64,000 nt of DNA, from NCBI GenBank assembly GCA_956465555.1, contig OY101117.1, positions 1,860,001 to 1,924,000 on the forward strand, read 5' to 3'. Both the position numbers and the translations under genes were made by a program. The DNA comes from Nitzschia sp. pyKryTriq1. Its lineage: Eukaryota > Bacillariophyta > Bacillariophyceae > Bacillariales > Bacillariaceae. Numbering within the stretch: the stretch's first letter is position 1; every line of letters begins with the position of its first letter. Under the pieces are notes generated by a model, which ran no database searches, had not been told where the DNA came from, and was given only the letters and a program-made list of their open reading frames with translations. Below, one piece after another: positions 28,738 to 63,400 of the stretch.

Positions 28738-30371
28738 CACGGGCCGAAGTTGCTTTTCCTCTTCTTCTTGGTTTGACTCCTTTTCCAAGGTATCGTTGTT
28801 TATTCTTCCGTGGTGCGTCCTGGTGATCGTATCTTTATTCGACGACAATGAAAGAGATACAAGGGCTTGGTCTCCGTCCGAGTAGGTCTTTGTGCTTTAT
28901 GCTTTGTGCATAGGACGAGTAGTGCTGTTGTAATACAGCTACAGTATGAGCATTTTCAACATCTGTGGGGCAGGTTCCTCAAGCATGCTCACTCGTAGCG
29001 ATGTACACGCAAAAACCACCTCTCCACAACATACAGTACCGAAAAAACGTGTCTTGTGTTTTAGACCTCGGGTGTACATAGAGGTATGTGCAGACGATTG
29101 TATGTATGTACTTGTATCATTCCGTCCGTCAGTTTCGCGCTCGGCGGGCGGGCCGTCGCGCCAAAATTCCGATGTGGTACAGATGAGATCCCCTTCCGGT
29201 GCCGTCGGCGGTGTTCGTTCGTTCGTCCGTGGTCGGTAGTGGCGAGTTTTTTTCTCCAAAATGTGATTCCCTTTAAATGTGGGCATATTTCGCCTGAAAT
29301 ACCAATTGAACGAGTATACTAAACACTTCAGTGTCCGCGCTAATTATTTTCTCTTGTAGGGAACAGATGACAAGAGAACTATTCAATGGATGGTTCTCTC
29401 GAACAGACTGCACGAGTAGACAGGATTGCGCCGCTTGTTTTCGTACCGGTACGAGTGTACGAGTTGAGTGCGCGCGACTCCGGGTTGACGTAGAATTCTA
29501 GGTACATAGTACCAGGACGCTCAATCGAATTGGTCAATCGTCGCACCGAACGCCCGCCGCCTCTCTTTCCGATTTCCAACATTGAGAGAAGTGCGGCAAC
29601 AAGTCGTACTCAACTTCAAGCTGCTTCAATGCTAGTACCAGCAAAAAGAGGCTTGGACTAGAGGATGTCCCATTGTAAAATGCGGCTTCCATCACCTCGT
29701 TGTCGGAACAAATTCCGCCCTGCAATAGATCCGACCAACACCTACTAGTAGCTGGGCAGCAGCACCAGGAGGGATTGCCCACATTTACGATGAGTCCGAG
29801 AGTATAGTAACACACAATTGACAAAAAAGATGGGCAGTCATTAACATGTAGTTAAGCCCTACTTCTTGTCCATAGAGTGTTGTTATCATAGAATTAATTC
29901 ACTCGAAAAGTCATTCTGTAGTAGCTGAAGGGATCGGATGCCTTGTCGCAGCCTCTCTTGAGTCACGGCCATTTGAGTCTTGGGACACGTGTACAGTAGG
30001 TGTTGACCGAAAAATCGGCAGAGGATCCACGCGTATTTACGTGTTGACATGGATCTGCGATTTTTTCGCGTTGGTGTCAACGCATCAAAACCTGCATGCC
30101 TGCCAGACATCATCGATCACTCGTAAATACTGCGGTACAGTACCAGGTACCGGTAGACTACACGTACTGTACACGTACTGTACAAGTACTGACTGCTGGG
30201 CCGCTCCCGAAACTGTCAAATACCCAGTCTGGCTATGGCCACGATCCACGATGCCGGTGTCTCCTATCCGCACCCGCTTACCGCTTACCATCTACCATCA
30301 ACAAGTCGTCGTCGCAATCATCTATAACTTCAAGTCGAAGACCCATTGCTCGGACTTTCATCCAACCAACC
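28738..30371. repeat. Divergent intergenic region with GTAC blocks
   Basis: No gene recognised. It lies between the Cys/His-domain gene (-) and the TPS-type gene (+). GTAC palindromes at about 29444-29465 and 30134-30190 (GTACAGTACCAGGTACCGGTAG, then GTACTGTACACGTACTGTACAAG). Several short ORFs on both strands lack protein-like content. Confidence 0.5.
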
Positions 30372-33300
30372 ATGACAGGAGCCCCGGTCCCTACGGGCCG
30401 CGTCGTCCGACTGCACTTTGAGTGCCATGCCGAGCTGCCCATTGGAAGCTACCTGCGAGTCACCGGGTCCAGCTTGTGGGCTCCCACCGCTATCGGAACC
30501 CCCAGTGACCCCATGAATGCGCACCACATTGCTCAAGAACGACAGCAAGATGCAGCCTTTGCCGGTGCCCTCGACGACGCCGACTATTGGTTTTCCCACC
30601 CCACAAACTTGTACACGTCGAGCGTCGAGATGGTGACTTCACCCGAAACCTATCCCCGCTGGAGGACGAAGCAGCCCGTGATCGTGGTGCTTCACACCAC
30701 GCACTCGGCTATTCAGCACCACTACTACCGCTATCTTGTAGTTACGCCGGGAGCTTCGATCGAAGAAAGCAGTTTGGTAGCTGCTACCGGAAATGATGCT
30801 CTCGGCGGTGTCAGCGAAGTTATGATGTGGGAGCAGCCCTTTGGACCTATCACTGGTCCAGTTGTGAGCACGCAGAGCTTTGGTGGTAAAAGTATGCAGA
30901 GCGATGAAGCAAGCCACTTTTTGTGGAATCTAACTCAGCTACCCTACCGAACATTGGATATCAATGTAGAGAGTGCGGAGGTGGTCTCGCCGGCTCCGGA
31001 AGACAGGCTGGATACCTGGAATTTTCCAGAAGATGCCTCGTTCCGGGCCTATCAAATCAGAGAGTCTATGAGCATGTCAAAGAACCAGCAGGCGGCCAAG
31101 CTCTTGCAAAGATCCAGCCAATCCACGTTGAGTGACGATGCCATGCAGGACGATGATGTCCAGGTCACTTCAGCCCCTCTCTCTGGGTTGAGCAGCAAGC
31201 AGGAGCTTACTTCGAATAAGAACACGGCACCAAAAATTCTTTTTATTTGCTTTCACCTACCTGTTGTCGTTGTCAAGGTTCAGGGGCAGTGGCAAGCCAC
31301 GTGGAGTGAATCTTTGCTGGCGCAAAAGGAAGGGTCCAAAATTGTATCCACCTATCGAGCGCACTGGATTGGTACCGTCACGCCTCACCCACCCATCGTC
31401 AATGAGGAGGACCGGCAAGCTGTTCGCAATGTTCTCGCTGAGCTGAACTGCACCCCCATCTTTCTGAATCCGTCTACTCGACAGGCTCACTACTACGGAT
31501 TTTGCAAACAGGTATTGTGGCCCGCCTTTCACAACATTGACTTGTTGGATTTGAGTACCAGTAGTGGCGTCGGTACCACGGGAAGTACTAGTGGATCCTC
31601 GGCCGGTCATGCCGCAAGTGACTGGGACCAATCGCGATTGGATCATTGGTGGCAAGCTTATCAGCAGGTCAACCAAGAGTTTGCCACCGTAGTTAACGGC
31701 CTGGTCGACAGCGATTCGAGTACCTACCTCTGGATTCACGACTACCACTTGAGCCTATTGCCTCGCTGTTTGAACAAAGAACCAGCCAGATCGTGCCGTA
31801 AGGTTTTCTTTTTGCACATTCCCTTTCCCACATCTCAAATCTTTCGGGAATTGGAATGTGGTGAAGATATTTTGACGGGAATGCTACATGCTGATGTGGT
31901 TGGCTTCCACGCGTTTGATCACGCTCGTCACTTTCTGAATGCAGCCAAGCGTATCTTGGGCCTCAACTACGAATCTTTGGTCGGGGGACTGATTGGTGTC
32001 AACTACCTGGCAAAGACAGTTCTAGTCAGTATGTCCAACGTGTCTATTGAACCGAAAATGGCCGAGGGTGAGTAATTGTGTCATGGAAGGGGGTTATTGT
32101 ACATCTTGTATATTCCCACGCTCATCGCCGGTTGATTCTCTGTTTTATAGCTGGTCTAGCCTTGCCGTCTGTGGCTCAAGGGGCTCAAGACTATAAAATC
32201 AAACACGGGGCTCGGCAAATCATCTGTGGTGTAGATATCGGGCAACGCTTGAGTGGAACATCGCTCAAATTATTGGCTTTCGAGCGTCTCTTGAGAGACT
32301 ATCCAAGCTGGCAGCAAAAGGTCGTAATGGTAGAGCGTGTCCTAGTACCAGGATCTCGTAAAACAGATGAACAACTCACTCTCCGAGAGTTGCGAGCTTT
32401 GGTACAGCGTATTCAAGAGAAGTTCGGCCCGGAAGTTATCGATTATCAGGAGGTGTCAGGTTCCAATCTCCCGATGGATCAAAGATTGGCCCTGTGGAAG
32501 GCCAGTGATGTACTCATGTTGACACCGATCCGCGAAGGACTCAACCATTGGCCGATGGAGTTCATTTACGCCAAAGATCCTGAGTCACCGGGTGTGGTGA
32601 TAGCTTCTGAATTCAGTGCCGTGTGTAGTATTTTGAATGGAGCATTGAGAGTCAATCCCTTTGATATTCAAATGACTATCACCACAATTGATAAAGCGCT
32701 GAGCATGGATGTGCAAGAACGAGAAGGCAGACGGTACCGTGATTTGGACTTTGTGTCTAACATGCCTTCTGATAAGTGGGTTCGAAACGTCTTGCGCGAC
32801 TTGAATGACGCGACGGCTGCCGCCAAGGCCTCCTCAAAGAACAATTCCAGCTCGGCGACTCCAACAACGCCTTCCTTTACGCCTCGTCGTCCGAAGCAGC
32901 AAGAGCTTCTGGAAGGAGCAGGGGGGTTCTTATTGAAGGAATCACATGCTTCTTTCACCCACCTGAGCTCCAGTACATTGAAGAAGGCCTATGATCACTG
33001 CCAGAATCGTGTGATAGTATTGGACTTCAATGGGACCATCGTCCTCAAAGAGCCTCCTGGTAAGTATCTGAAAAGAGAAATCTTGGGAACCTCTGGAAAT
33101 AAACCACCACCAGAAGTAATCGAGGCCCTGTCTCTGTTGTGTGAAGACCCCAAGAATACAGTATACGTGAACTCTGGTGATTCGGCAGAGAATGTCCTGA
33201 GTGCTCTCGGTCAGATTCCAAAACTTGGTCTAGCGGTATCAAACGGCGCCAATTTTAGTCCCCCGATGACCGACCAAGACTCGGAAAGACGTTGGCAGAC

Positions 33301-33964
33301 GTTCGACCTTGGTGTGGACTGGGATGCTGTTAAACGTGTGGCACTCCCTGTACTGAGCAAATACACGGCACGATCCAACGGGTCGTTCGTGAAACTCACT
33401 ACCTTTTCCATAGGCTGGTCGTACTATTCTTGCGATCCCGAATGGGGTTCGCTCCAAGCGTCTCACTTGGTGCTTGAGTTGGAGAACGAACTCAAAGCCT
33501 TCGATGTACGCTTTGTGACTTTGAAGGGCATTGTCGAGGTAGTCCCCCGAAAGCTTAACAAGGGACTAATCGTCAAGAAAGTCCTCCGGGACATCTCCAG
33601 GACCCACGCTGAACCAACCGACTTTATCTTGTGCTTGGGCGATGATATTTCAGACGAAAAGATGTTTACTAGTGTTTTCTCCTTCATCGCTGAAATGGGG
33701 GACGAAGCTCGGGCAACACCCGATCCCCCAGTGGTAGACAGAGACGGGACCCTAGAAAACCCTCCCGATTGGTCAACGATTCAGACAAGAATCAAGGATC
33801 CACTATATTGTTACACATGTGCAGTCGGGAAGAAACCATCGCATGCTTCGTTCTATGTGAATGATGCCCAAGAAGTCGCCAAAAGCCTGGTCCTTCTTGC
33901 CAAGGGGCGACAAGAGGAAAGCAATCCGTCATGGGGGGATGACAGCAGTCACATGTTCACGTAG
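30372..33964 (+). CDS. CBM20-trehalose-phosphate synthase/phosphatase-like protein (class II type)
   Basis: Model: 30372-32067 and 32151-33964, giving 1,169 residues. Domain order: CBM20 starch-binding-like domain (about 10-110, VRLHFECHAELPIGSYLRVTG), GT20 synthase-like domain (about 285-720) and HAD phosphatase-like domain (about 845-1130). GT20 signs are LWIHDYHLSLLP, FFLHIPFPTSQIFRE, GFHAFDHARHF and IREGLNHWPMEFIYA. The HAD part has VIVLDFNGTIVL and LCLGDDISDEKMF. Key residues differ from active enzymes: the phosphate-binding 'GVDR...KG' segment reads GVDIGQRLSGTS, 'NL..E' reads NHWPME, and the HAD DxDxT motif reads DFNGT, with Asn for the second Asp. It is probably weakly active or regulatory, like plant class II TPS, and may sense sugar phosphates in the cytosol. 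Confidence 0.85.
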
Positions 33965-40956: not shown

Positions 40957-42396
40957 CTCGTCTGTTCACGAGATGGATTCAGCACAAATACACGTCAGAT
41001 CTTTTGGGTACAGCACCGGTCGAGATCACTCTACGTATGAAAGTGCTGGGTTTCCGATTTTGTTTCTTTGGTCACTTTCTTCTATCTTAGAGTGTCGCCT
41101 CTTCTGTCTCTCCAGTAAGAATCTCGAGAGACAACAGCAATAACAACAACTCAACGGGCAACTTTTGACAACAAACTGTCATCGTATTATGCCATCGGGC
41201 GGGAACCTGGAACATCTAATTATTATTTACATTGGACACTGGACACTATTTACTGCACAGGTGACAGGTTGGAGGCAAGGCACTATTACCAGGTACCTGG
41301 TACTGTAGCGAAAAACGTCAGCGGAAGCGAGAATGCGAGAATGCGCGAGGATGGGCGAATTTTTGGTCCGGACAAAGTATGATACTTACAAGTACAGTAC
41401 TACTTGTCCAGTACAGGGTACCAGGTACCCTGTACCGGCACGACAGGTACCGGTACCTGGTACCTGGTACCTGGTACCTGGTACCTGGTACCTGGTACCT
41501 GGTACCTGGTACTTGTACTTGTACTTGTACTTGTACTTGTACTTGTACTTGTACTTGTACTTGTACTTGTACCGTACCGGTACGATCAAGTTTAGCAAGG
41601 TCTCGCGGGTCTCGGCCGGTCATTTCAATGTCTGCGTGCCTGCCCGCCTTCCGGCATTCTGGATTCGCTCGCACACAAACGCGAAATGGAGGCTGTCAGG
41701 CAGCTCGCCCGCCGCGTACCGCCTTGCGCTCGCTCGCATGAAAGATATATTCAATTACTCCTGTATATGAATATGAATATGCTATGTTTGAACGCTAGGC
41801 ACGCCTGCCAGTCTGAAAACGCAATCGACTTAGAGTGAAATTCAAGCATTGAGAAAGGGCACATTATTCCCACAGACTTGTAAATTGAATAGTCTTCAGC
41901 GTTGTATACGATCATTCCTCTTTCATTCTTAATTGTATTGGAATTTCAACGTTTATTTTTTGGCGCCTGCCACTCGCCACTAATTCGCTCGCCATTCTCG
42001 CTAGACTTGTACCGGTACGTTGCGTACCGGTACAGGAGAGTATTGTACCAGTACCAGTACTGTACCATGAAACATGATGCTCGCGCCGACCGTCGACGAA
42101 AGTGGAAAACAAACAAAGACAAGATAAGACAAGAAGGGTTTGAAGACAAAGGACGGATCCATCGATCTTCTCCTCCTAAGTTCGGTGCTTGTAGTTATTG
42201 CCGGTGGATAGAGCCTGGTAGTTCCGGAACTGTACGGCTGAACTTTCGAGGCTTCAATAGTCGAATCAACCACCCGTCACCGTCACGGCACGACAATAAT
42301 CGCTTGAATTTGGACAGGCTGTCACATCATTTATTCGTAACTGGTCGGTGATTATTTGTGTTAAATCATTTTGTGAGGCACAGTCGAATATTGACG
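40957..42396. repeat. Divergent intergenic region with the largest GTAC array
   Basis: No gene recognised. Besides the tandem array at 41452-41572 there are GTAC palindromes at 41291-41302, 41417-41455 and 42009-42063. The region separates the OSCA-like gene (-) from the NRPS-like gene (+), so it holds both promoters. Confidence 0.55.
41452..41572. repeat. Two-phase microsatellite: (GGTACCT)n then (TACTTG)n
   Basis: About eight exact copies of the 7-bp unit GGTACCT are followed without a break by about ten copies of the 6-bp unit TACTTG, ending in TACCGTACCGGTACG. Both units keep the GTAC core, and the array is flanked by palindromes of the same words. Open frames across it encode only simple repeats and are not genes. 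Confidence 0.85.
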
Positions 42397-45300
42397 ATGC
42401 CGGGAACAAGACCAGAAAGCCCTGCCCCGCCTGCAGGAGCACATACACATTCTCGGTCTCCTCGAGGAACTGGAAGCACCAAGTTGGCGTCCCCTTTGGT
42501 CTCTGCGTGTCGGCATCTCCTGCAACCCAATGGCAGCATCAGTGGCGACGCTGTTGCCAATGCGATCTTGCCCAACTTCCCCGATCTGTGTAGTGCCTTG
42601 CCAGCAGACTACTTTGCGAGTCGACCCGCTCTTCTTGGCGTGGATGATAGGAAGCCTCTGACACATGCCCGCATCCGAGACTTCATCCTGAACGAGCTCG
42701 GACCCAGCCTCCACGAAATGGGCTACGGTCGAGGGAATCGTATCGCTCTCGTGCTCCCGAATGGACCTGAACTTGCTCTGGCGTTGCTAGGTCTCGCTCA
42801 GTGGGCTTCGTGCGTACCTCTAAACGCAAATGGTGCCCATGCCGAACTCAAAAAGGACTTGCACGCTGCTAAGGTATCGATGGTCGTTGGAATGTCCGAA
42901 GACTCAGCCTCCATTCAAGACATGGCCCGCGCCCTCAATATTCCCTTCTGCGGTCTTATCAAGTCGGAAACAGAAGTCGGCGTTTTCCGCCTTATTCCCA
43001 TGAGCCCGCCACATCACATAATGACGCCTTTCATTCTGCGAGAACCAGAGGACGAATACTGCTGTACATCGGATACTGTATGCCAGACTAGCACTGGGGG
43101 TAGGATCTACAAGACTTCCTCGATGGATCAGTCGGAACACACCATGTTTTCCAATGATCACAACGACGAGGTTCTCGTGCTTTTCACATCCGGGACTACT
43201 GGAAACAAGAAGTTGGTGCCCCACAAGCTCGGAGATATCCTTATCGCGTCTGCTGTCATCAGTGTCAGCTGGAATCTGTCACCAGAAGACATCAACTGCA
43301 ACCTCATGCCACTCTTCCACGTCGGTGGTATTGTTCGGCAGATCTTCGGCCCAACATTAAGCGCTGGAAGCGTCATCTGCTGTCCATCATTTGACCCACA
43401 AATGTTTTGGCAGCTGTTAACTAAGGATGGCTCATCGCCCAGTTTCACTTGGTACTATGCTGCACCGACAATGCATCAAGTTATCTTGGCGAGCATGCCC
43501 GATGACTTGAAGGAGGTACCAAAATTACGAATGATCGCTAATGCAGCTGGAGGGCTGTTGCCCTCGTTGGCCCAAGAGCTACGCAATACATTCGGTGCCA
43601 ATGTTCTACCCAGTTATGGTATGACGGAGTGCATGCCTATTTCATCGCCACCATTCTCATACAAACTCGAGAAACCTGGGACAAGTGGAGTTGCAGTCGG
43701 TCCACAGATCACAATCTTCTCCAACAACTTTGAAATCCTTCCACCAGGTAGCGAAGGAAACATCTGTGTCAGGGGTCGTCCTTGCTTCCATGGCTACGGT
43801 GGCCAGTCGCAGGACGAGTCCTTCTTGGAAGGTGGCTGGTTCAATACGGGTGATCTGGGCTACCTTGATAAGGATGGGTATTTATATATTACTGGGCGGT
43901 CGAAAGAAGTGATCAACAGAGGAGGCGAAATCATCAGTCCCATGGAAGTGGAGGAAGAAGTCCGTCACCACCCAAACGTGAAGGACTGCCTAGCGTTCTC
44001 CGCTCCACACGATGTGCTGCAGGAAATTGTTGGTGTTGTAATTGTCCCCAGACCAGACATACCGAAAATTGACTTGCCATCCCTCCATGAGTTCTTACAA
44101 GAAAAGTTGGTTCCTGCTAAGTGGCCCCAGTGCCTCGTATTCATGGACGCTCTCCCAAAATCACACACCAATAAGTTGTTAAGGGTTAAACTTGGACAGC
44201 GTTTAAACTTGCCGGAGCTGAGCGATGGGATGTATCCCGTTGAGCGCACATATGAAGCAACCTGTCCACCACAAGGAACGCCTGTTGGGGTATCTATTCC
44301 TTGCGAGCAAGTTGCAGTCGACACAGAGTACATCCAGGAAGTCCTCCACGACGAGCTCGGTCTCGTTTACGACAGCTATGTTGACCTCTTGGGCAACAAA
44401 ACCGCGGAAAAGGGCGAGGAATCTGAAAGACATTTGATTGTCAGGCCACACCCGACACGAATCGGTGGTATCGTCGTCCACTTGTCGAACATCGATCGAT
44501 TACAAGTCATCAAGAAGGCCAGCGGCGCGTTGGATGCCTACTTGCAACCATGTCATATCGTGTCGTATCCAAACAAGATGTCAATGACGAACCTAAAGAA
44601 AATGCCCGACGCAACCGATTCTGTTTCAGCCATTCTTTCAGGAAACTATCGCATGACATCCGACCCGATGATCCAAGATCTTCAAAAAATTATACAGGAC
44701 ATGGTTGATTTGGACTGCTTGCCAGCGCCAGACACGAATTTCTTCCACATCGGCGGCTCTTCGTTGATGGATTCGCAGTTGGCCAGCAAGCTTCGAAAGA
44801 AGTACAAGGTTTCTTTCTCTGGAGCCGACGTTTTCCGCTATAACACATGTCTGGATATTGCCAAAAGGATCCAGTACCAGAAGCCTGAACATCGCCAAGG
44901 TGTGGGCTCACAGAATCTCATGGACGATACTTTGTTGAGTGTGACGTCGAACCAAGGCGCGAACGCCGGAGGGTGCTGGGCCGACCCCTCCATGCAATGC
45001 CCGAGGGATTTGCAAGATGCGCCGTTAGAAACGAAACGACTACAGCCTCAGAACAATCTTTTTGCTGCTGTTGTGCAATTGATTCCTGGGTTTGCTCTTT
45101 TTCCATTGTTTCAGTTTTCTCGATTCTTCCTTTTCTTTATGAGTCTCCTTGCAATCTTGAACACAATGCCTGGGGAACATAATATACTGAAGTTTATCTT
45201 TACCCTGGTAGGGTATCACTTCCTTTGGACATTCATCACACCCTTGATTTTTATTCCTCTCAAATGGATCGTGATTGGTGAATACAAGCAAGGGAGATAT

Positions 45301-47421
45301 GCTATGTGGAGTTTCTACTATCTCAGGTGGTGGGTTGTTGATGTTTGCAGGAAAGTCATCGGTCGTGGTGTGTGGGGCTCCCACGAAGGCCTCTTGATTT
45401 GGTACTACCGAATGCTTGGTGCAAATATTGGCGCCAATGTTCGAATTTCCCTCATGGCTGATATCGCCGAGTATGATCTTGTCACGATCGAGAACAACGC
45501 CATGATCGAATACTCATCCGTCCGTGGTTTTGGAGTGGACAATGGTGCGATGATTCTTGGCCCTGTCCACGTTGGAGAGTCTTCCAGCATTGGGATCCGA
45601 TCTGTTGTTGCTCCATTTACAAAAGTTCCCTCAAAGGCACATGTTGGCCCCGCGTCTTCAAGTTACGAGCTCACGCACAACGACGACCGACATTTGTCTT
45701 ACCATCGCTACTCTGTTCCTGATCCAAATTTTTGGTGGCGATCTTTCGTGTGTGCGCCGATTTCTTTCTTTGTGGATACGATGTCACACTTACCTGCAAT
45801 GTTCGTTTTGTACGAACTGGTCATGATGCACGAAAGAGCGGACCTTGATAGAACTTTCCGCACCATGGATGATCTAATGGAATGGCTGTGTGAGCCAAGG
45901 CGGATTCCTTACTACATCGCTATCAGAGTTGCGAGGGGCATCCTGGCTCCATTTTTCTACATGGGTGCAGCTATACTTGTCAAGTGGTGGATCATCGGCG
46001 AGTTCAAGGAAGGCCCCAGAGACTTGGCATCTCAGTGGCAGCGCTCAAGACATTGGTTGGCATCCCGTCTATTTTGCCGGGAGAACATGCAGGAAATTAC
46101 CGATGTGTTGGGTCGACATTACGAGTCGATTAGCGTCTTGTACCGACTGCTTGGCGCAAAAGTCGGGAAGCGAGTGTTCTGGCCTGGGCACCAACCCACC
46201 TTTTCAGGCGAGTTCGACTTACTTCAAATAGGCGACGACGTCGTATTTGGTTCTCGCACGGTAATCATCTGCAGTTCACGGGAGCGCCTTGAAAGGGTGA
46301 TTTTTTGTGCCGGTGCAAACGTTTCCGATAATTCTGTTGTTCTACCGGGCGGCATCGTCGGTAAAAATGCTGTTCTAGCATCTAACACTGTATGCCCAGC
46401 AGGACGATACTTGCCAGAGTCCAGCATCTGGCTTGGGTCTACAGGCGGTGAGCCCATTCTTCTGGAACCAGGAACCGAAGCAAATGCCAACACACCTATT
46501 CTATCATGCAATGTCAAGAAGGACGCACTTCCAATGCAAGGCGACGAGACAACGTTGCGTCCTTTCGGCAAAGCTGTGTACAATCGTCAAGCTACTTACT
46601 TTGTATGGACGCCGGCCATGATGATTGCTTTCAACGTTCTCAGCGACACACTCTGTCAGATTTTTCATTCGCTTCCGCTTTTGTCATCAGTACATTTGGG
46701 CGGGATTGCTCTGTATGGGTTGCCTGTATCTTCCAGGGATTATGACGACGCCTACGTGTCTGCGCAAGAGCTCTATATGACTCTCATGCCCATATTTATT
46801 GCAATGCATCTGGTGCGAGTCGTTCTATGCTTTGCGATAGAGATTGGTGCGAAATGGTTCTTCCTTGGACGTAGAACTGAAGGGAGGTTCAACTGGGACC
46901 AATCTCGCTATGGTCAGCATTGGGAATTTTATCAAATCATCACCAGGATCCGACGGATGCATCGTATCAGCACACTGGACCTCATAGCTGGTTCGACGTA
47001 TATCACGTGGTATTTCAGGTCGCTAGGATCGAAGATTGGAAAAGACTGCTGCCTCTATCCCGCTGGAGGCGACCCCTTTATGCCTGAGCCGGATCTTGTG
47101 ACCATTGGTGATCGATGTGTAATCGACCTTGCATCGATTGTCGCCCACTTGAACACACGCGGTAACTTTGAGTTGGTAAGGATCAGGATCGACAACAATG
47201 TCACGCTACGTTCAAGATCCAGACTCCAGCAAGGTGTCCATTGCGAGTCAGGTTCTATGCTGATGGAAAAAAGTTTAGCTCTCACAGGCGAGATCATCGA
47301 AGCCAATAGCGTTTGGCAAGGAGCACCTGCTTCGAGAGTCTTTGAGTACGAACACAGGGACGGCGTTTCCCCGGCCACCTCCTTCGAAGGATCAAACGTG
47401 GGCTACACTGAATTTGTATAG
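42397..47421 (+). CDS. NRPS-like A-T-(membrane acyltransferase)x3 synthetase, Pls-type architecture
   Basis: Single exon, 1,674 residues, ATG 42397 (the earlier opening is GTG). Residues about 45-610 are an acyl/amino-acid adenylating domain: VLFTSGTTGNKKLVPH (about 258), PSYGMTECMPIS, FNTGDLGYLDKDGYLYITGR, SKEVINRGGEIISPMEVEE and the catalytic-Lys block SHTNKLLRVKL. It most resembles the AAE3/4CL branch. Residues about 745-830 hold a carrier domain with FFHIGGSSLMDSQLAS (Ser for phosphopantetheine). From about 888 on there are paired membrane helices and three left-handed beta-helix acetyltransferase-like units (about 1007-1085, 1248-1340, 1538-1648), each opening with YRMLGANIG, YRLLGAKVG or FRSLGSKIG. 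This matches bacterial epsilon-poly-L-lysine synthetase (Pls) and the NRPS terminal domain TIGR02353. It probably loads one substrate and couples or polymerises it at a membrane; product unknown. Confidence 0.85.
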   Translation: MPGTRPESPAPPAGAHTHSRSPRGTGSTKLASPLVSACRHLLQPNGSISGDAVANAILPNFPDLCSALPADYFASRPALLGVDDRKPLTHARIRDFILNELGPSLHEMGYGRGNRIALVLPNGPELALALLGLAQWASCVPLNANGAHAELKKDLHAAKVSMVVGMSEDSASIQDMARALNIPFCGLIKSETEVGVFRLIPMSPPHHIMTPFILREPEDEYCCTSDTVCQTSTGGRIYKTSSMDQSEHTMFSNDHNDEVLVLFTSGTTGNKKLVPHKLGDILIASAVISVSWNLSPEDINCNLMPLFHVGGIVRQIFGPTLSAGSVICCPSFDPQMFWQLLTKDGSSPSFTWYYAAPTMHQVILASMPDDLKEVPKLRMIANAAGGLLPSLAQELRNTFGANVLPSYGMTECMPISSPPFSYKLEKPGTSGVAVGPQITIFSNNFEILPPGSEGNICVRGRPCFHGYGGQSQDESFLEGGWFNTGDLGYLDKDGYLYITGRSKEVINRGGEIISPMEVEEEVRHHPNVKDCLAFSAPHDVLQEIVGVVIVPRPDIPKIDLPSLHEFLQEKLVPAKWPQCLVFMDALPKSHTNKLLRVKLGQRLNLPELSDGMYPVERTYEATCPPQGTPVGVSIPCEQVAVDTEYIQEVLHDELGLVYDSYVDLLGNKTAEKGEESERHLIVRPHPTRIGGIVVHLSNIDRLQVIKKASGALDAYLQPCHIVSYPNKMSMTNLKKMPDATDSVSAILSGNYRMTSDPMIQDLQKIIQDMVDLDCLPAPDTNFFHIGGSSLMDSQLASKLRKKYKVSFSGADVFRYNTCLDIAKRIQYQKPEHRQGVGSQNLMDDTLLSVTSNQGANAGGCWADPSMQCPRDLQDAPLETKRLQPQNNLFAAVVQLIPGFALFPLFQFSRFFLFFMSLLAILNTMPGEHNILKFIFTLVGYHFLWTFITPLIFIPLKWIVIGEYKQGRYAMWSFYYLRWWVVDVCRKVIGRGVWGSHEGLLIWYYRMLGANIGANVRISLMADIAEYDLVTIENNAMIEYSSVRGFGVDNGAMILGPVHVGESSSIGIRSVVAPFTKVPSKAHVGPASSSYELTHNDDRHLSYHRYSVPDPNFWWRSFVCAPISFFVDTMSHLPAMFVLYELVMMHERADLDRTFRTMDDLMEWLCEPRRIPYYIAIRVARGILAPFFYMGAAILVKWWIIGEFKEGPRDLASQWQRSRHWLASRLFCRENMQEITDVLGRHYESISVLYRLLGAKVGKRVFWPGHQPTFSGEFDLLQIGDDVVFGSRTVIICSSRERLERVIFCAGANVSDNSVVLPGGIVGKNAVLASNTVCPAGRYLPESSIWLGSTGGEPILLEPGTEANANTPILSCNVKKDALPMQGDETTLRPFGKAVYNRQATYFVWTPAMMIAFNVLSDTLCQIFHSLPLLSSVHLGGIALYGLPVSSRDYDDAYVSAQELYMTLMPIFIAMHLVRVVLCFAIEIGAKWFFLGRRTEGRFNWDQSRYGQHWEFYQIITRIRRMHRISTLDLIAGSTYITWYFRSLGSKIGKDCCLYPAGGDPFMPEPDLVTIGDRCVIDLASIVAHLNTRGNFELVRIRIDNNVTLRSRSRLQQGVHCESGSMLMEKSLALTGEIIEANSVWQGAPASRVFEYEHRDGVSPATSFEGSNVGYTEFV

Positions 47422-59624: not shown

Positions 59625-62600
59625 TTAGTAGTATCGCCACCAGCCACTCGTGCCACGAGGAATCATTTCGGGAACCTCTTCAATCAGACGCTCCCACATG
59701 ACTGCATCTACATTGCGGTAGACAATAGCGCCAACCTGTTGAGCGCGCTCTGGTAGAGACCAAAACAAAACCTTGAGGTATCGCACACGTTGCATGTGTC
59801 GCGGGAGATTCGAAATGACATAAGGGATGATGATCTCCCAGCGGTCGGCGTCAGTGATTTCCCAAACTTTACGGGAAATTTCCTTCTGGACTTCGAGAGG
59901 AAGGTACTTCTTTCCGATAGGTTGCAAGTTGTCTTCTTCGCCCTTGAGATGTTCCTCGAAGTGTGAAAAAAAGGGAGGAAGAGTCTTGTTGAGTACATCA
60001 AGCGCTTGTTGGCGCTGGGCGACGGGGAGAGAACTGTCGAGCAGGATGTTGGCATTCTTTTCAACCTCATCCATGACAACGTGGGACTCTTCGTGGTCAT
60101 CATTGAACTGCTTGGCGTGGTCGTGGAACCAGTCGTTGAAGACCTTGAAAATGACTTCATCTTCATGCTTGGAGTGCTCTTCGTGCAAAATGCTGAATCG
60201 GTTCAAGTGAACGGCGAACATGCTGAGATTCTGATTCATTTCCTCCGTGTTGGTCACGTCGAGGCTTCGCAGCGCCTCTCGCATGGTACTCATGTTTCCG
60301 CGGAAGGCTTCATGCGTAAGTTTCATGAACGAGAGAGGGCCCCACTTGTTCTCGGGGACAAAAATACCGCGCCGACGAATCAGAGCAACGCCCGTGTGAA
60401 GCAAGTTGGCAAGGTTAGCGACCGACGCCATGACCAACCCAATGGTTGCAAGAGTCTGGGCGGCGCGGAAGTCTGTGACTGCATAAAAGAGGCAAGCAGC
60501 AGCAGCAAATGCACCCAGCGCGAAACAGCCAATCCAGTATTCCATCCCCCACTTGTCCTTTCCGACGAATCCTATGTTAGGCATCGCCGAGTAGACGATT
60601 CCCAAAAACATGAAAATCGAAATGAAGTAGTAGTTTGAGAAGGAATTGACACACTCACTCTTGTCAATCGGACTCTTTGAGTAGAAGCACACCGAAAAGT
60701 CTGACATTCCCAGGACAGCCGGCGCAGCCAACCACGTGAAGATACCAAATCGAAGACGGGAGTCGCTGTTGTGCGTAGTGACAACCTTGAAGAAGGTAAT
60801 GGTGAAAAGGACCAAGAACATGAACACTGCGAACGCCTGGAAGAAGCGAGCAATATAGACAGTTCCTTCGGCGCTGTCGCTGTCGGTGGCGAAAAGAGGA
60901 ATCATAGGGGCAACCAATGCGGCAACGCTCAATCCAACAGGTAGGATGAGCCAGTGTGGATGGATGTGCTCCATCTCCAGTCGCCGAGCAATCCATTCAC
61001 CCATTTTGGCAACGGTTAGGAAGACCTGGGCGATGGCTCCGATCCAAAAGAATATACGGGAGACGATTTGGGGCGGCTCTTCATTGCCGGCCATCGCTTC
61101 ATCTTGATCGTAATCAATCTGATCATAGAACAAAAACGCAAAGCACATGAAACAGAGGGGAATCATCGAGAAGGAATTTCCACGGAGAGGGCAGTGCCAC
61201 TCAGTGACGCACTTGTGGGGATACATTGCTAGCCGAATCATGTAGAGACAAAACATGAGCAAAAATATCAGAAAGCCAACGGCTGAAATAGCCTGGAACG
61301 CTCCTTCGTGTACAATGAAGCCTCGCTCTTCCACACCGAGGGCGGTGCCGATACCGTTGGTCCAGTCAGAGGCAACTTTGAACGCAATGGCAAGGGCCGC
61401 AACAGAAAGTGGAAGAGCGAAGTACCCCACTTGCATGTGACGGATAAAGTCAAAGTCATCCTTGCTGTATTCATCAGTCTTCTTCTTGTATTTCAGGGAA
61501 ATGGGAGAGGTCAGATCACTGTTATGTACGGAAGCAATAGCAATCATGAAAACTAGTTAGAAAACATGCTTCTTTAGTGGAAAAAATAAACCACGTTACT
61601 CACGTGTCGACTTTGTCCGGGGTGGGCGCTTTCTGATCCAAAAACATGTAGTTCCAGCTCTCTTCGTTCTCCTCACGAGACGAAGTATAGATGCGGTAGG
61701 CGTACTGTGGTCATCATGTATGGAAGCAATAGCAACCATGAAAATTGGTTAGAAACTGGTTCGCTCGCTTCAGAAGAAACCATAAAGCACGGTACTTACG
61801 TCGGGAATCAGTCCCAGGTATATTCCGATCTGGAAGAATTTGCACCCGAGGCAGAAATCCAAGGCCCACTCCATACCCGAAGCACCAGCCAGTCCAGCCA
61901 TAAAGGCCATACCGACCCACTCATGGTATTTGAAATCAAGGAAATAAAAGAGGGTTCCCAGCCCAGAAAACATGACCCCGCAAAACGAGGCGAACTGTTT
62001 CGGGGGCCCGGGACGGAATTGCGGGCGGAAGGGCGAGACCAAAAAGGTGGCAATCATGCCCAAGGGCGAGGCCGAAGCACCGGCCATCATGCGCAAGCAA
62101 AAGTCGAGCAAGACAAAGACGGTGAGCCAGTGGGCCCAAAGCTCGTCCTTGAATACCGCGCAAACGACACTGAGGGCGCACACTTGAAAGCCGGTTACAC
62201 GGATGACGTAGTTGTTGACCACATTGGGGAACCAGAAAAGAGGGTTCATGGCCACGCCGCGGTCGGCAGGAATCAGGCGGGCAGTTTCTAGCCTGTCAGT
62301 ACCGACGGCGCGAGATTTGTTGACCAAGCCCTTGAGTAAGGTGTCGAGCTTGCCCTTGTGGTGGAGGGCCTTGACATCATCGCATCCTCCAATGAACGCG
62401 CCCTTGACGAACACCAACGGGACAGTGGACTTTCCAGTCTTCGACTTGGCGTAGGCAAAAATCTTGCCGCCCTCGGGGTGCAAGTTCACTTCGACGGAGT
62501 GAACGGTAACGCCAATCTTGTTGATCAAGAGATCCTTGACATCTCGGCAAAAGGGACAGGTGGACTTGCTGATCACCATAACGGCATGTAGGTCAATCAT

Positions 62601-62765
62601 AGCATCGATCTTCTCCGTAAGATCAGCCCCAGGATAAGATTGAATGTCGTTGATGACAATCGAACCACCAGCGGGGTCACGTTCCTTGGAAGCCCCAGCG
62701 GCGACTTCAATGTCCTCGAAGACCAGGGGAGAAACTTCGTTTGAGGCTTTCGTGTTGGGTGGCAT
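59625..62765 (-). CDS. Glutaredoxin-DUF4395-TDT/SLAC1-hemerythrin fusion protein
   Basis: Model: 62765-61800, 61704-61604, 61518-59625, giving 986 residues; phases 0 and 2 fit. ATG 62765 (MPPNTKAS); the earlier opening is TTG. Domain order: glutaredoxin (about 45-145) with KSTCPFCRDVKDLL (Cys70/Cys73), STVPLVFVKG and IGGCDDVKAL; DUF4395 membrane domain (about 147-322) with DRGVAMNPLFWFPNVVNNYV, PGPPKQFASFCGV and LDFCLGCKFFQIGIYLGL; a short linker; TDT/SLAC1 channel-like domain (about 365-690) with MQVGYFALPLSVAALAIAF, PHWLILPVGLSVAALVAPM and FQAFAVFMFLVLFTITFFKV; and a hemerythrin HHE domain (about 780-905) with HLNRFSILHEEHSKHEDEV, WFHDHAKQFNDDHEESH and FFSHFEEHLKGEEDNL, giving His/Glu iron ligands. 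The enzyme-channel fusion could couple redox or oxygen/NO sensing to anion or dicarboxylate/sulfite export. Confidence 0.85.
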
Positions 62766-63169: not shown

Positions 63170-63400
63170 AATGGCGAACAGTAGGGGAAGGTCGACGAAC
63201 ATTTATATACACCCGTCGGAGTAGGGGAAGGTCGACGAACATTTTTAATTGATTACTTATATATACCCGTCGGAGTAGGGGAAGATCGACGAACATTTTT
63301 ATTGATTAATTATATGTGCCCTTCGGAGTTGGGGAAGGTCGACGAACATTTTTGATTCATTACTTATATAGGCCCTTCGGAGTTGGGGAAGGTCGATCGG
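63170..63400. repeat. Five copies of a 54-bp direct repeat
   Basis: The word GT(A/T)GGGGAAGGTCGACGAACATTT occurs at 63181, 63221, 63275, 63328 and 63382, spaced 40, 54, 53 and 54 bp. Between copies lies an AT-rich TTTTTGATTGATTACTTATATA segment and CCCGTCGGA or CCCTTCGGA. It is a minisatellite; copies drift gradually, and the last is cut short. Confidence 0.8.

Follow-up and report, generated by a model that had tools for sequence, protein, structure and literature searches.

A predicted diatom membrane protein that joins glutaredoxin, DUF4395, SLAC1-type channel and hemerythrin-like domains

A stretch of 64,000 nucleotides from the diatom Nitzschia sp. pyKryTriq1 (contig OY101117.1, positions 1,860,001 to 1,924,000; the window below means this whole stretch) carries a minus-strand gene at 62765-59625 whose three exons join into an open frame of exactly 986 residues. 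From the N to the C terminus, the spliced frame holds a glutaredoxin domain with a CPFC motif, a DUF4395 domain, a SLAC1/TDT channel domain, and a hemerythrin-like domain, and this four-domain order in a single spliceable frame is confirmed. A preliminary description of the DNA had named the same four domains, the same order, and the same three-exon frame, and both Pfam and the spliced translation bear it out. We predict from the sequence, with moderate confidence, that the product is a SLAC1-type anion channel or passive exporter with a thiol-redox module at one cytosolic end and a di-iron sensor at the other. The fusion suggests a channel that would be controlled by the redox state of the cell and by oxygen (O2), nitric oxide (NO), or iron.

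Pfam was run on the two long open frames of the gene; the glutaredoxin and DUF4395 matches fall in the first, those to SLAC1 and hemerythrin in the second. All features are on the minus strand. Exon 1 (61800..62765) encodes residues 1–322 with the first two domains, and exon 3 (59625..61518) encodes the channel, the hemerythrin-like domain, a C-terminal tail, and the stop; both follow from the spliced translation and Pfam. Between them, exon 2 (61604..61704) supplies a linker of about 34 residues from DUF4395 to the channel domain and is set off by intron 1 (61705..61799, 95 base pairs (bp)) and intron 2 (61519..61603, 85 bp). Both introns run from GT to AG and include a branch-like CTAAC, and the frame is kept over both junctions. 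With a codon-use model trained on nine other open reading frames (ORFs) of the window, exon 2 obtains +7.0 bits when read in the required frame versus −4.8 and −7.2 in the other frames, a value reached by 3 of 2000 shuffles, whereas introns 1 and 2 score negative in all frames. Given canonical splice junctions and an exon 2 whose codon use in the required frame is of the coding type, a single transcript over all three exons is likely, and the splice evidence favors it over separate transcripts for 61800-62765 and 59625-61518, which the preliminary description had raised as an outcome that would speak against a single protein. Two adjacent genes would require a glutaredoxin–DUF4395 protein ending within intron 1, where exon 1 continued past its donor does meet a stop after nine codons, and a channel–hemerythrin protein starting at an ATG within intron 2 that is indeed in frame with exon 3. 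Set against the canonical splice sites and branch-like motifs of both introns, the frame kept across the junctions, and codon use of a coding type in exon 2 and not in the introns, this arrangement is very improbable.

The two introns have a clear relation to each other by pairwise alignment and pattern scan. They are alike over almost their full length, including the donor, the branch region, and a common TTTTCATGRTTGCTATTGCTTCC block, as if one had been copied from the other or both had come from a mobile intron. The pattern has no third copy within the window when up to 3 mismatches are allowed. Upstream of the gene, at 63203-63396, a 54-bp unit is repeated in tandem 3.6 times with 90% matches.

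The channel domain (60393..61439) is assigned by Pfam SLAC1 (PF03595) at 2.3e-26, with 93.2 bits versus a cut-off of 27.9. A profile made from the window channel and 23 bacterial TDT rows matches the structures of TehA, SLAC1, SLAH3, and SLAH1 at 9.3e-37 to 1.2e-25, and these matches span almost the whole domain. The alignment places Phe688 (60522-60524) in a column that is invariant in all 24 rows and that also holds Phe262 of TehA. According to the accessible part of one source, Phe262 blocks the TehA pore and is equated with Phe450 of SLAC1 (PMC10645844). The likeness to plant SLAC1 and SLAH channels and to Haemophilus TehA lies in this gate phenylalanine and in the channel fold as seen by profile. 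At the level of subfamily, the NCBIfam tdt model (TIGR00816) gives 78.5 bits, far under its cut-off of 237.25, and identity to the bacterial TDT rows is 22–23% at best. In a TDT tree, the window channel falls in a very long-branched group with an end branch of 3.37, a placement flagged as unsure. Nitrate, nitrite, chloride, sulfite, and malate are all compatible with the TDT/SLAC1 family as the transported anion.

Behind the channel lies the hemerythrin-like domain (59919..60335), which is defined by a 38-row alignment (the window row plus 37 bacterial rows), a structure model, and a fold match to FBXL5. The preliminary description had named loss of the His and Glu iron ligands in alignment as a reason to abandon the assignment. 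They are not lost: the six invariant columns of the alignment are all kept in the window protein, as His758, His804, Glu808, His831, His879, and Glu883, and His835, four residues past His831, stands where a further ligand could be. We take the six to have iron-ligand roles. An alignment mixing TDT and hemerythrin rows was tried for folding and dropped, its hemerythrin rows having fallen on the channel, and the hemerythrin part was folded alone. The resulting model is a confident four-helix bundle, with a predicted local distance difference test (pLDDT) score of 94–98 over residues 21–150 of the folded piece, and it is FBXL5-like. In a Foldseek search, hemerythrin chains of FBXL5 make up 9 of the 10 best rows, with a probability of 1.00; the top match has a template modeling (TM) score of 0.71 by target and an E value of 0.027, and no row is below 0.001. 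A profile of the whole hemerythrin alignment finds YtfE repair proteins nearest and also matches ScdA and FBXL5 chains. What the window domain shares with the FBXL5 sensor domain and with bacterial YtfE and ScdA is a helix bundle with the set H, HxxxE, H, HxxxE. A helical C-terminal tail of about 100 residues (59625..59918) follows, over which model confidence drops to low.

The closeness of the fold to FBXL5 raises the question of whether the domain gates a pore at all. As in FBXL5, it could be an iron or oxygen sensor for protein stability, such that iron supply would decide whether the channel is degraded or retained. Ubiquitin ligases of the FBXL5/BRUTUS type sense iron and carry an F-box or RING domain, whereas the window domain is joined to a channel, and Pfam finds no F-box, RING, or CHY zinc finger in the protein. 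Any degradation signal would therefore have to act via partners, and we consider control of stability unlikely. The available portion of PMC5156380 concerns a diatom hemerythrin protein that is different from the one in the window.

At the other end of the protein, the glutaredoxin domain (62391..62582) passes the Pfam model (PF00462) at 7.3e-13, with 48.9 bits versus a cut-off of 22.9, and a PDB sequence search finds glutaredoxins as the nearest solved chains, the best at 1.3e-15. The NCBIfam eukaryote glutaredoxin model (TIGR02180) gives 77.7 bits, under its cut-off of 87.25. CPFC (residues 70–73, 62547-62558, by motif position), TVP, and GGCDD occur in the order expected of class I dithiol glutaredoxins, and presumably they have their usual roles here. 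The difference from that class is that the domain forms the N-terminal part of a large membrane protein.

The DUF4395 domain that follows (61830..62219, four membrane helices) is equally clear in Pfam (PF14340, 1.1e-22, 81.2 bits versus a cut-off of 24.5). Its CLGC (residues 305–308, 61842-61853) aligns to the CxGC of the family, a motif whose cysteines and glycine do not vary across an alignment of 40 rows. A model of exon 1 shows DUF4395 with four long helices followed by a short last one, at the beginning of which CxGC is located. The glutaredoxin part of this model is poor because the underlying alignment contained no glutaredoxin rows, and the PDB fold match is unconvincing (best E value, 0.19). 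In bacterial DUF4395 proteins, a second CxxC lies at most 40 residues after CxGC in 79 of 79 readable proteins (loci L004-L083 except L053, which gave no usable frame and was left out of the count). The two cysteine pairs of these proteins could serve in redox or equally form a metal site. The second CxxC is absent from the window protein, in which the sequence continues IPDYAYRIY, and also from several Chloroflexota forms.

The association of DUF4395 with thiol-redox proteins in bacteria, which the preliminary description had put forward as frequent, is seen in some Chloroflexota and not in a mostly actinobacterial sample. Fifty Chloroflexota DUF4395 loci were taken, 30 as the best-scoring and 20 for their long open frames. 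In seven of them, all from the latter 20 (L302, L305, L306, L308, L312, L315, and L317), the DUF4395 chain continues at its C-terminal end as a thioredoxin-like domain that contains CTDC and an LVPT segment. Pfam Thioredoxin matches all seven fusions and is above its cut-off in two. With a model of the seven fused domains, 12 further Chloroflexota loci prove to have a thioredoxin-like ORF within the stretch that was fetched; six of these ORFs were checked with Pfam, and all six match thioredoxin families at E values of 0.01 or below, one of them above cut-off. Because the loci were chosen in two ways and one of them (L313) has no match to the DUF4395 model, the 19 of 50 loci with a thioredoxin partner are not to be read as a rate. 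The same model finds nothing in the first 80 DUF4395 loci, which are mostly actinobacterial, or in 60 TDT loci, and neither thioredoxin nor glutaredoxin is among the 25 of 76 families listed for the first DUF4395 set, from scans of 72 of its 151 neighbor ORFs, a coverage too incomplete for these neighbors to be informative. The Chloroflexota fusions resemble the window protein in having a CxGC membrane domain and a thioredoxin-fold redox domain on one chain. They differ in arrangement: their thioredoxin-fold CTDC part comes after DUF4395, whereas in the window a CPFC glutaredoxin comes before it and the channel and hemerythrin-like domain come after.

We picture the product as a single integral membrane protein with a pore of TDT/SLAC1 fold. 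On its N-terminal side, a dithiol glutaredoxin and the four-helix DUF4395, with the CxGC pair past the last long helix, would form a thiol-redox module, and on its C-terminal side a putative di-iron hemerythrin-like domain would sit directly behind the last channel helix. Channels of the TDT/SLAC1 family have ten helices. Added to the four of DUF4395, they would put both soluble ends in the cytosol, an orientation that takes an even number of helices for each family as given. The di-iron center may respond to O2, NO, iron, or redox by changing state. Since the hemerythrin-like domain comes right after the last channel helix, such a change could shift the gate region, moving the last channel helices such that the Phe688 gate would open or close. 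Glutaredoxin and DUF4395 may then reset or modulate thiols using glutathione. Plant SLAC1, as far as the accessible sections of PMC10645844 go, likewise has an intracellular domain at each end, and phosphorylation of these domains controls the gate and thereby opening; soluble N- and C-terminal domains flank the pore there as they do in the window protein. The plant ends are phospho-regulated, whereas those of the window protein are glutaredoxin plus DUF4395 and hemerythrin.

Bacterial neighborhoods connect some of these parts as separate genes. In a set of 60 TDT loci fetched by score with flanks of 1.5 kilobases (kb), a hemerythrin ORF occurs in four (L106, L107, L108, and L134). As the first three are near copies, this amounts to two independent cases, versus 0.08 hemerythrin genes expected from genome density (Poisson P ~0.003). 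A wider set gives four of 60 loci (three independent) with a hemerythrin ORF within about 4 kb of TDT, versus 0.35 expected (P ~0.005, from a biased choice). This set consists of 60 of the 91 TDT matches listed and was picked after hemerythrin ORFs had been noticed beside four of them; since the stretches were chosen with those ORFs already seen, its P value is not blind, and the score-fetched set is the fairer one. The ORFs used to train the hemerythrin model include those of the TDT–hemerythrin loci. The same model finds no hemerythrin ORF in the 80 DUF4395 loci. These counts support a general association of hemerythrin proteins with some TDT channels, and nothing further.

Nitrate reductase genes appear in the same surroundings. 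TDT lies beside narGHJI-like genes, with hemerythrin genes close by, at L227, L241, and L242, and beside narGHJI-like genes at L265, L266, and L268. At L241, NarG, NarH, and NarI are above their NCBIfam cut-offs, and NarJ is 0.15 bits short. One hemerythrin gene near the TDT of L227 encodes an iron-sulfur repair (RIC) protein above cut-off; three other hemerythrin proteins scanned for RIC gave weak matches. Across the 60 wider loci, all four nar-like genes are present in five, three are present in one, and NarI stands at a contig end in one. The position of bacterial TDT genes beside narGHJI makes a link to nitrate or nitrite export possible, and the TDT–hemerythrin neighborhoods lean toward nitrate respiration rather than sulfite. 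The window channel was considered as a relative of these nar- and hemerythrin-linked TDT proteins, and this idea was rejected, as the tree, in a placement flagged as unsure, puts it outside their clade; the loci are kept as an analogy only. L228, labeled nar in the tree as a near copy of L227, is absent from the nar listing (5.5-kb contig). Among six loci of the window channel's nearest bacterial group, Pfam scans of ten neighbor ORFs found no family common to the loci.

Six more of the 60 wider loci, three of them near copies, have distant NarG/NarH-like oxidoreductase ORFs alone, and these could be sulfur enzymes. They bear on the idea that the window protein is a sulfur or thiol machine, in which glutaredoxin and DUF4395 would pass electrons or sulfur at the membrane, the TDT part would export a product such as sulfite, and hemerythrin would be an O2-dependent or iron-buffering partner. 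Some TDT proteins do export sulfite, and DUF4395 is paired with thioredoxin-fold partners in Chloroflexota. Pfam, however, finds neither rhodanese nor sulfite oxidase nor any further sulfur enzyme in the gene or in 19 other ORFs of the window, and we regard a sulfur machine as doubtful.

A more specific form of the channel hypothesis, which draws on the few bacteria that hold TDT, hemerythrin, and narGHJI genes close together, is an O2- or NO-gated nitrate or nitrite channel. In dark anoxia, hemerythrin would lose O2 or gain NO, the SLAC1 pore would open and let stored nitrate out for nitrate respiration, and glutaredoxin and DUF4395 would reset the system. Nitrate is stored by diatoms, which reduce it when they are in the dark without oxygen; according to the accessible part of a 2015 review, the functional genes that underlie dark-anoxic nitrate reduction in diatoms had yet to be identified (PMC4686598). 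Even so, we judge this particular assignment of anion and signal quite improbable.

Relatives of the complete protein were sought in several collections. No relative was confirmed in viral contigs by pattern scans with exon 3, exon 1, the C-terminal part, and the DUF4395 alignment, or in genome contigs by a pattern scan with exon 3, scans whose sensitivity extends no further than close relatives and whose scope leaves out eukaryote genomes. Exon 3 gave three weak matches (E values, 0.003–0.008) against 296 genomes of one phylum and two weak matches against plasmids. Searches with phmmer, using the window glutaredoxin, SLAC1, and hemerythrin domains, found nothing in the 760 ORFs of the 80 DUF4395 loci, and PADLOC and Rfam returned nothing. 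The order glutaredoxin–DUF4395–channel–hemerythrin was not described in the literature searched, most subscription papers being outside its reach, and that literature contained no joint treatment of hemerythrin, glutaredoxin, and Phaeodactylum or of glutaredoxin, hemerythrin, anion channel, and fusion. Each domain is known, and the combination is new relative to the literature searched; because every part is known and no description of the whole order was found, we count it as a variant of known parts.

Several observations weigh against a SLAC1-type channel with redox and di-iron control. The residue after Phe688 is alanine, whereas plant SLAC1 and at least 90% of the aligned rows have proline there, and conductance of SLAC1 is impaired when that proline is changed to alanine or glycine, as given in the accessible text of PMC10645844; the TehA chain 3m71 has glycine at this position. 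The profile searches that the preliminary description had proposed put glutaredoxin, DUF4395, and SLAC1 over their Pfam cut-offs and hemerythrin just under (PF01814, 1e-4, 23.2 bits, 2.1 under the cut-off of 25.3). This weak call is supported because the six invariant columns are kept and the model is confident. No ORF matching both the SLAC1 and hemerythrin models occurs among 61 bacterial TDT and 64 hemerythrin ORFs, and the pattern scans, with their reach of close relatives, yielded no relative of the same order for comparison. The hemerythrin–TDT neighborhood stands on two or three independent loci, and the bacterial TDT proteins adjoining hemerythrin genes belong to a different clade from the window channel, whose placement is flagged as unsure.

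Two other regions of the window also encode multidomain proteins. At 30048-33961, two neighboring open frames jointly span a fusion of glycosyltransferase 20 and trehalose-phosphatase and are probably one gene broken by an intron or a frame break. At 42352-47418, an open frame of 1689 residues combines an AMP-binding domain, the C-terminal domain that goes with it, and a PP-binding domain, after which ~850 residues have no Pfam match at an E value of 0.01.

Overall, DUF4395, which has no assigned role in Pfam, is now tied to thioredoxin-fold partners in bacteria and in a eukaryote. Plant SLAC1 is a phosphorylation switch, whereas the window protein, if our reading of it as a redox- and di-iron-controlled channel is true, would read redox and O2, NO, or iron directly. 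Should the host be an alga that stores nitrate, this protein would be a direct test case for the release of a stored anion upon oxygen loss.

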